From: an uncultured beta proteobacterium
GTDB taxonomy: Bacteria > Pseudomonadota > Gammaproteobacteria > Burkholderiales > Burkholderiaceae_C
DNA: 41,460 nt
Direction: 5' to 3'
Assembly: GCA_903951445.1 (NCBI GenBank)
Contig: CAJBBZ010000088.1
Span: 1-41,460 of the forward strand
Shown here in pieces: positions 20,630 to 22,654 of the stretch. The stretch's first letter is position 1, and every line of letters begins with the position of its first letter. The notes below the pieces were generated by a model. That model searched no databases, was not told the DNA's origin, and saw nothing but the letters and a program-made list of their open reading frames with translations. The position numbers were made by a program, and so were the translations under genes.

Positions 20630-22654
20630 CTACAAAGGTCGGATGCTACCGGGAACAATTTTCGCCCCAAAGTCGCGCATCCAAGTTTGTACCAGAGGGT
20701 TGCTGTGGATGATGCGCTCGGCGGCCTGCTGGCGCTCGGCGCTGGCGCTGGCATTGCGGCGTGCTGGGCTGTCACTGACGCGGCCCACCTCCACGGCCAG
20801 CGCAACTGCAAAACCGGCGTCTTGCAGCGCCTGGCTGAGCCGATCGCGGCTACCTGCCTGGTTGAGCGATTCGCTCTCGACCCGCAAAATCCACTGATCC
20901 TCGTCGCGTCCAATCAACTGCGATTGCAATGCCAACTCGCGCGCCAAGGCGTTCACCGCCTGTGACTGGATCAGGGCTTGCACGGTTGCGTGCCAAAAAG
21001 CTCCGTGTTCACTTTCCACAAAGCCGGCCACCGCGCTACTTTGCGTCTGGTCCAGGCGGCTTTCCTGCTGCACCCGCATCGGTACGCCCACCACGCGGTG
21101 CGCGGCGGTGCTTTTTTCAGCGGGCTGCGACTGCGATGGGGTTTGGGATGGCTGAGAAACTTGCGCACCCTTCGCTAGGTCAAGATCAGCGCCATGGCGG
21201 GCATCCTGGTCATGAACCGCCAGCAATTGACCCGGCGGCAACTGGAGGGCGGGGGCAGGAGGAGCAGTAGGTTCAAGCTCAGCGCTATGGGTAGCGGTAA
21301 TACCGGTCCTTGGCACAGCGGCCACACTGGTTGGAGCGCTAGCACTATTGCCTTGCTCCGAGGGCGGACTATGGGATTGCGGCCCCTGCGGCAGCACCTC
21401 CGCGGCAACTGGCAAAGGCGATTTCAGCGCGGGCTCCGGCGTTGGCGCTAGAACATGATCGGCACCATAATCGGCGCCGCGTGCATCCTCAGGCGCCGAT
21501 TTCAGGCTTTTTTTTTCCGCTGCCAGTGGCCCGGCTTGCAAGGATGCATCAACGGGCTTGAAAGCCAGTAAACGCAAAAGCACCATGGTCAGGGCCGCAT
21601 ATTCATCGGGCGCGAGGCCCAAATCGCCTCGTCCGTGCAGGCAAATGCTGTAGAGCAACTGGGTTTCATCAGCGGGCAGCACGGCGGCCAGGCGGGCCAT
21701 GTCCGCCTCCTGAGGGTCGCTGCTATCAAGCGCCGCTGCCTCACCCATGGACTGATAAACCGCCATACGGTGCAAGACGCTGGCAATTTCCTCTAGCGCG
21801 GAAGCGGCGTTCAGACCCTGCACACGCAGGCTTTCCACCGTTTCCACCACTTTGCGGCCATCGCTTTCGGCCAGCGCTTCGATCAAGGCAAACACATACG
21901 AACGGTCCACGCTACCCAGCATTTGCCGTACTGTGGCTTCGGAAAGCTGCCCAGCGCCAAAGGCGATCGCCTGGTCGCTCAGACTCAAGGCGTCGCGCAT
22001 GGAGCCGCGCGCCGCACGCGCCAGCAAATGCAAGGAGGGCTTATCAAAAGCCACTTGTTCTGCGCCCAGCACCTGCTCCAAATGGTCAAAAATGGTTTGC
22101 GGTGCCATGGGTCGCAAATTAAATTGCAGGCAGCGCGAGAGCACGGTTACCGGCACTTTTTGCGGGTCGGTGGTGGCCAGCACAAATTTCAGGTAATCCG
22201 GCGGCTCTTCCAGCGTCTTGAGCATGGCGTTAAACGCATGCCCGGTCAGCATATGCACCTCGTCGATCATGAAGACCTTGAAGCGCCCTTGCACGGGCTT
22301 ATAAACGGCTTGTTCCAGCAGCGCCTGCACTTCGTCCACGCCTCGGTTAGACGCGGCATCTAGCTCGGTGTAATCGACAAAGCGGCCGGCATCGATGTCG
22401 GTGCAAGCCTGGCAGACACCACAAGGCGTAGCGGTAATGCCACCCTGCCCGTCCGGCCCTTGGCAATTGAGAGATTTGGCCAGGATGCGCGAGACCGTGG
22501 TCTTGCCAACCCCCCGCGTACCCGTAAAAAGGTAAGCATGGTGCAGTCGCTGCGTAGTGAGCGCATTACCCAAGGCTTGCACCACATGGCCCTGGCCCAC
22601 CATTTCCGCAAAATTGCGCGGTCGGTATTTGCGGGCAAGAACCAGATAAGACAT
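20630..22654 (-). CDS. dnaX: DNA polymerase III tau subunit (and predicted gamma by slippage)
   Basis: Clamp-loader ATPase and organiser of the replisome. The full product (tau) is 674 residues. The AAA+ domain includes Walker A GTRGVGKTT (45-53), zinc ligands C64, C78, C81 and C84, Walker B MIDEVHML and sensor region VLATTDPQKVPVTVLSRCLQ. Domain III ends near residue 370. A Pro/Ala/Gln-rich linker and the tau-specific C-terminal domain (about 530-674) follow. At codons 380-382 the coding strand has nine consecutive A, with a stem-loop just after and stops in both other frames (see the signal at 21469-21516). A shorter gamma of about 383-388 residues is predicted. It is the second gene of the apparent run from 23428 down to 19614. 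Confidence 0.97.
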   Translation of the reverse strand: MSYLVLARKYRPRNFAEMVGQGHVVQALGNALTTQRLHHAYLFTGTRGVGKTTVSRILAKSLNCQGPDGQGGITATPCGVCQACTDIDAGRFVDYTELDAASNRGVDEVQALLEQAVYKPVQGRFKVFMIDEVHMLTGHAFNAMLKTLEEPPDYLKFVLATTDPQKVPVTVLSRCLQFNLRPMAPQTIFDHLEQVLGAEQVAFDKPSLHLLARAARGSMRDALSLSDQAIAFGAGQLSEATVRQMLGSVDRSYVFALIEALAESDGRKVVETVESLRVQGLNAASALEEIASVLHRMAVYQSMGEAAALDSSDPQEADMARLAAVLPADETQLLYSICLHGRGDLGLAPDEYAALTMVLLRLLAFKPVDASLQAGPLAAEKKSLKSAPEDARGADYGADHVLAPTPEPALKSPLPVAAEVLPQGPQSHSPPSEQGNSASAPTSVAAVPRTGITATHSAELEPTAPPAPALQLPPGQLLAVHDQDARHGADLDLAKGAQVSQPSQTPSQSQPAEKSTAAHRVVGVPMRVQQESRLDQTQSSAVAGFVESEHGAFWHATVQALIQSQAVNALARELALQSQLIGRDEDQWILRVESESLNQAGSRDRLSQALQDAGFAVALAVEVGRVSDSPARRNASASAERQQAAERIIHSNPLVQTWMRDFGAKIVPGSIRPL
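21469..21516 (-). promoter_or_regulatory. dnaX: Programmed frameshift/slippage signal in dnaX
   Basis: On the coding (minus) strand there is a run of nine A (21516 down to 21508) reading GAA AAA AAA A, then 6 nt, then a perfect 10-bp stem: AATCGGCGCC (21501-21492) and GGCGCCGATT (21478-21469), with a 13-nt loop. A -1 shift or one extra A meets TGA at 21491-21489. One lost A meets TGA at 21504-21502. Both give a protein ending just after domain III. Homopolymer, spacer and stem match the known design of bacterial dnaX recoding sites (E. coli ribosomal frameshift, Thermus transcriptional slippage). Use in this organism is inferred. Confidence 0.8.

Follow-up and report, generated by a model that had tools for sequence, protein, structure and literature searches.

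Comparative analysis of a nine-A run in a betaproteobacterial dnaX gene, a predicted slippage site for production of a gamma subunit

The dnaX gene and its A9 run

We analyzed a 41,460-nucleotide stretch of DNA from an uncultured beta proteobacterium of the GTDB family Burkholderiaceae_C (GenBank assembly GCA_903951445.1, contig CAJBBZ010000088.1, positions 1 to 41,460), hereafter called the window. Its minus strand carries dnaX, the gene for the clamp-loader subunit tau, and within the coding strand of this gene lies a run of nine consecutive A residues (A9) that is a candidate site for production of a shorter second product, gamma. The features of the gene are as follows.

20630..22654, minus strand: dnaX, a single open zero frame for tau of 674 amino acids (open reading frame and Pfam domains)
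21563..21943, minus strand: DnaX domain III, residues 238-364 (PF12169)
21508..21516, minus strand: A9 run in codons 380-383 (GAA AAA AAA Axx), the proposed RNA polymerase slippage site, which contains A_AAA_AAA in -1 frameshift phase
21502..21504, minus strand: TGA in the +1 frame, predicted to be reached by mRNAs with 8 or 11 A; 8 A would give a gamma of 383 amino acids
21489..21491, minus strand: TGA in the -1 frame, predicted to be reached by mRNAs with 10 A or after a -1 ribosomal shift, giving a gamma of 388 amino acids
20645..20977, minus strand: tau domain V, residues 560-670 (PF12170), missing from the predicted gamma

The coding strand at the site reads GAA AAA AAA AGC CTG AAA TCG GCG CCT GAG, with the ninth A of the run forming the first base of codon 383. 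A preliminary description made from the letters of the window had assigned the run to codons 380-382; its nine A residues and its coordinates are borne out, whereas the codon span is 380-383. The first stops after A9 lie at offsets of 3 (+1 frame) and 16 (-1 frame), and the predicted products are 388 amino acids (41.9 kDa) from 10 A and 383 amino acids (41.3 kDa) from 8 A, as compared to 674 amino acids (71.9 kDa) for tau, which is encoded by one open reading frame and not split over two frames. As domain III ends at residue 364 by Pfam, either gamma would add 19 to 24 residues to domains I-III, which agrees with the domain content first proposed for it. Note that the 3.61-Mb genome has seven A9 runs when both strands are counted, and that the other six are near open-frame starts or in short frames. 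The A9 run in dnaX thus appears to be more than a chance occurrence, since it is the only one that lies deep within a long open frame.

We consider it likely that A9 is a programmed slippage site of the Thermus type through which dnaX yields both tau and gamma. RNA polymerase would add or drop A residues on the run, so that a share of the dnaX mRNAs would contain 8, 10 or 11 A; these would be read into a stop a few codons on and would give a gamma of about 383-388 residues comprising domains I-III, while mRNAs with 9 (or 12) A would encode tau. Ribosomes may contribute through a -1 shift at this A_AAA_AAA. In Thermus thermophilus, dnaX has A9 and gamma is reported to come from mRNAs with 8, 10 or 11 A (PMC1088944), and a second paper describes two gamma forms with ends in two frames as well as a translational frameshift signature in the same gene (PMC4320859). 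The combination of a run and a frameshift signal, which had been regarded as unusual in the window, is therefore also found in Thermus. The window resembles T. thermophilus in having nine sense-strand A in a single-frame dnaX, with both shifted frames closed shortly afterward by stops that would lead to a shorter gamma, and differs in that it comes from a betaproteobacterial family and in that slippage is here predicted from sequence.

Conservation of the run, its codons and the stops that follow

The comparison drew on a genus sample of 61 genomes that provided an N-terminal dnaX piece from 54 (the other seven had no usable N-terminal dnaX), a named-genome sample of 80 dnaX loci mostly titled Rhodoferax or other Comamonadaceae, a family sample in which dnaX was read in 71 of 120 genomes, and an order sample in which it was read in 80 of 150, most families being represented by one or two genomes. 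The sampling corresponds to roughly one genome per species. After identical copies were dropped, the pooled set held 249 dnaX genes; in 158 of these the site was present, in phase and close to where domain III ends, and it was missing from 91. Among the 158 site-bearing genes, 156 belong to the clade of the window and are the relatives counted below, and two (L162 and L203) belong to other families. The family-level non-redundant genes (L143-L146 and L212-L278) carry the site in 38 of 67 cases, and the 29 without it consist of a tree group of 25 (support 87), L269 and L277 that stand alone in the tree, L278 that is outside the tree set, and L253 that has another site. Trees were made with FastTree, using domains I-III for the counts of run changes, and have many weak forks.

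Conservation of the run is extensive. Specifically, A9 is present in all 150 non-redundant dnaX genes that are 77% or more identical across residues 1-365, a threshold that was picked after the data were seen. Loss of the run through synonymous change in close relatives, which the preliminary description held would speak against its proposal, was looked for in these genes and was not found. The run is likewise present in 54 of 54 dnaX pieces from the genus and in 80 of 80 named-genome loci, with one example of ten A in each sample, and the 156 relatives have nine A in 155 cases and ten in one. These figures bear on phase variation, in which the DNA run itself would gain and lose A residues within a population and which sits poorly with DnaX being essential. 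A runs can indeed be hypermutable through replication slippage (PMC1088944). At about one genome per species, however, an out-of-frame run occurs in none of the 150 genes at or above 77% identity and the single A10 among the 156 relatives is in frame, and we regard phase variation as extremely unlikely.

The conservation extends to the choice of bases. Lys codons 381 and 382 are both AAA in 156 of 156 relatives, and AAG is found at none of these 312 codons, as compared to an AAA share of 39.5% for Lys codons elsewhere in the same genes. No A is lost in the seven genes with Gln or Lys at residue 380 or in the 30 with Ser at residue 383; the Ser codons at 383 are AGY in 30 of 30 genes, as compared to 37% of Ser codons elsewhere. 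On the tree the run undergoes 0 changes, a count that is partly by construction as members were picked for having the run, whereas the third bases of eight conserved Lys columns undergo 9-46. Flanking sites undergo up to 66 changes, with 7 at the base before the run and 2 to 27 at the five bases after it. A -1 ribosomal shift on A_AAA_AAA requires seven A and a -1 stop. Judged by this comparison the run, with nine A as opposed to seven, is kept beyond what such a heptamer requires, and selection is acting at the DNA level and not merely on the protein.

Retention of the A residues for the protein sequence (Glu-Lys-Lys-Thr), or by chance, with no programmed gamma is very improbable on these grounds. 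The peptide EKK[TS]L does recur among the relatives, as this explanation would have it, but the absence of AAG, the invariant AGY at Ser-383 and an enrichment of stops in both other frames all argue against it. So does the position of the run relative to domain III, with a distance from the residue-360 equivalent that varies from 9 to 32 codons.

Both shifted frames are closed shortly after the run. Stops in both frames within 36 nucleotides are present in 151 of 156 relatives, as compared to 7.3% of 11856 positions used as controls within these genes, and the -1 frame considered by itself has a stop within this distance in 152. At offset 3, 139 of 156 relatives have a +1 stop, whereas 3.7% of control positions have one at 3 nucleotides or less. 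If the amino acids are kept constant and codons are drawn at background frequencies, 98.5 such +1 stops would be expected (standard deviation 4.6, relatedness ignored) versus the 139 observed. The +1 stop is kept by codon choice, with CTG used before A and CTA used before G or A; CTA accounts for 37 of 139 Leu codons at the site, as compared to 2.0% of Leu codons elsewhere, and for 15 of 16 before G, where it creates TAG. On the tree the type of stop changes 34 times and its presence 14 times. Conservation of the +1 stop favors slippage because slippage needs a +1 stop and a -1 ribosomal frameshift does not.

Two additional features at the site are not explained by stops alone. Among the relatives, Thr at codon 383 (window 21506-21508) is encoded by ACT in 104 of 126 cases, as compared to 7.4% elsewhere. 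Codon 384 (window 21503-21505) undergoes just two tree changes at its first base.

Programmed production of gamma, as predicted in the preliminary description, is strongly supported by conservation of the run, of its codons and of the stops in both frames. A clade-wide A9 together with codons that hold both stops constitutes strong comparative evidence that gamma production is under selection; slippage in the RNA, its rate, and the making and use of gamma are what we infer from this pattern. Slippage that yields a truncated product has been described as hard to judge by comparative analysis (PMC1088944), and the two-frame stop test used here is one way to do so.

The downstream stem and a possible ribosomal contribution

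Downstream of the run, the window contains a potential hairpin.

21492..21501, minus strand: 5' arm of a perfect 10-base-pair stem, aatcggcgcc; the stem is not conserved
21469..21478, minus strand: 3' arm of the stem, ggcgccgatt; a matching arm is found in L028 alone among the six nearest relatives

The arms are perfect reverse complements that enclose a 13-nucleotide loop, and the spacer gcctga (21507-21502) separates A9 from the stem. The positions first reported for this spacer, for the stem and for both TGA stops agree with the coding strand. The 50 nucleotides after the run fold with -21.2 kcal/mol (z -2.2 versus shuffles), and a stem of at least 10 base pairs in equivalent placement is found at 8 of 1081 control positions. 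However, the nearest relative, L003 (89.7% nucleotide identity over domains I-III), has no stem and, by a by-eye comparison, L028 keeps it with a G-U pair while L031, L032, L113 and L114 are without the 3' arm. Stems of at least 8 base pairs that start 4-9 nucleotides after the run are not enriched (6 of 156 relatives versus 5.2% of 1081 control windows), and stems of at least 10 base pairs occur in 3 of 156 relatives versus 8 of 1081 control windows. By these comparisons the stem is unusual in the window's gene, yet not conserved, and we rejected it as a conserved stimulator. Its inclusion in the signal by the preliminary description is thus not upheld: the finding is stronger for A9, and weaker for the stem, than could be known from the window alone.

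The run also has the X_XXY_YYZ phase in all 156 relatives, as would be expected if gamma were produced by an E. coli-type -1 ribosomal frameshift, with a slip on A_AAA_AAA aided by the stem and a stop at TGA 21491-21489. The frequent -1 stop and the strong stem that starts 7 nucleotides after the heptamer in the window speak for this explanation; the lack of this stem in the nearest relative and the lack of enrichment of stems of at least 8 base pairs across the 156 relatives speak against it. It also leaves unexplained why the first and ninth A are kept, though the heptamer needs neither, and why the +1 stop is conserved, though it is not needed. A slightly better fold of the downstream 50 nucleotides than in controls and the presence of A_AAA_AAG at about the same place in a related genus (L279-L283, see below) are congruent with a ribosomal event. 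In contrast, the 18 nucleotides before the run show no outstanding anti-Shine-Dalgarno signal: their mean is -3.64 kcal/mol, versus -2.25 to -3.75 at other offsets that do not overlap the run. The low values at +6 and +12 are probably due to pairing of the run with the UUU of the tail used. The Rfam model RF00382 of the E. coli dnaX element also gave no match at E up to 1 in the window, in L003 or in L028, whereas the E. coli control matched at 1.1e-19. A broader Rfam search gave nothing at gathering scores at the site, only a sub-threshold match to the small RNA family RF02054 (21 bits, cut-off 70).

The window thus shares with E. coli the same gene and product logic, and has A_AAA_AAA in -1 phase with a stem after it, but differs in having A_AAA_AAA and not A_AAA_AAG, no clear upstream Shine-Dalgarno sequence, a stem that is not conserved and a +1 stop that is. 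Overall we consider a ribosomal frameshift unlikely as the explanation for the site. Slippage by RNA polymerase is favored because nine A and stops in both frames are what slippage needs, as in T. thermophilus, and a ribosomal share is possible because the phase of the heptamer is right in 156 of 156 relatives.

A folding profile from plain shuffles was, in our reading, misled by windows that hold the A run, and comparisons with control windows were relied on instead. The 30 nucleotides 5' of the run have a z of -0.49, as compared to +0.11 to -0.34 in windows farther upstream, and the hairpin score just 5' of the run is 11.9, as compared to 11.1 in controls (p 0.00015). For a 5' hairpin that could aid polymerase slippage, this is a weak excess.

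Several observations weigh against polymerase slippage as the source of gamma. The invariant phase of the run fits a -1 heptamer and is not required by slippage. The better downstream folding (mean z -0.56 across the 156 relatives versus -0.17 in control windows, p 0.0004) could hint at a ribosomal stimulator; note that 28 relatives without A9 have similar folding values at some offsets. As regards the stops, offset 3 has no +1 stop in 17 of 156 relatives, one of the two frames has no stop within 36 nucleotides in 5 of 156, and the +1 stop could instead be retained as a clean-up for accidental slippage. Codon co-variation gave 2.5 independent pairs for and 0 against out of 4 (p 0.25), which is too few pairs for significance. 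Finally, clustering of the 156 genes yields 133 groups at 90% and 21 groups at 80% nucleotide identity, and because of this relatedness the raw counts overstate the evidence.

Related sites in the order and a genus with the E. coli heptamer

L253 belongs to a genus (that of genome G232) in which five of five genomes (L279-L283) are without A9 and have the E. coli heptamer A_AAA_AAG at codons 378-379. In L279-L283 a -1-frame TGA begins two bases after this heptamer, and a near-constant GGGAG-containing GGGAGTGCCGCCGAGCCGTC is located upstream of it (AGGAG... in one). RF00382 gave no match to the site of this genus at E up to 1, whereas E. coli matches. The genus groups with A9 genes under a fork of support 97, with the A9 gene L250 outside this fork and with a deepest branch order that is unsure. 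A gene for the small signal recognition particle RNA (RF00169) is also present near dnaX in L279-L283.

A runs are also found in dnaX of other families of the order. All three genes read from family f48 (L162, L291 and L292) have A9 in the phase of the window's run, directly followed by a -1 stop, and two of them have no near +1 stop; judged from this arrangement, the f48 site looks like an independent ribosome-type site. The one gene read from family f46 has A9, and two genes of family f4 have A9 or A10. Of seven genes read from families f14, f28 and f36, five (L163, L287, L170, L193 and L288) contain a run of 8-9 A that is in a different phase and immediately precedes domain V (FDGDW-like motif); a -1 TGA follows 3-7 nucleotides downstream and may stem from the protein motif. 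In family f12, two of four genes (L179 and L289) have A10 immediately ahead of domain V, followed by a +1 TGA after 2 nucleotides, and the other two genes are cut short. The recurrence of A runs across families of the order indicates that such sites probably arose more than once.

From these distributions one can draw a broader picture, for and against which we see the case as evenly balanced. The Comamonadaceae-like clade of the GTDB family would set its tau/gamma ratio in transcription at A9, one genus, placed within this clade or at its base, would truncate at the ribosome through A_AAA_AAG, and A-run sites would have arisen separately in other families. The likely change of mechanism within one family is in our opinion the most interesting part of this analysis. 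If true, one level of readout for gamma has been exchanged for the other at nearly the same position in dnaX, and the A_AAA_AAG genus would allow control during transcription and control at the ribosome to be compared in nature for a single product.

Two-open-reading-frame dnaX genes with -1 frame transitions are listed by GeneTack for 17 genes in 12 genera (PMC3711429). Like the window, these involve a poly-A in dnaX that is proposed to slip during transcription; unlike the window, where tau is the zero-frame product, their tau needs a shift. According to the same source, the genera whose dnaX is annotated in Recode-2 with one open reading frame are Escherichia, Neisseria, Salmonella and Vibrio (PMC3711429). 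What gamma does in E. coli is reported to have been resolved only after much controversy (PMC5009743). Searches of one literature library by title and start of abstract gave no paper on dnaX recoding in the window's family among the matches listed and none on dnaX slippage in Rhodoferax.

Elsewhere in the window, an ilvH RNA element (Rfam RF02993) is present at 436-503, downstream of a minus-strand open reading frame at 536-2356 which we take, from inspection, to be acetolactate synthase-like.
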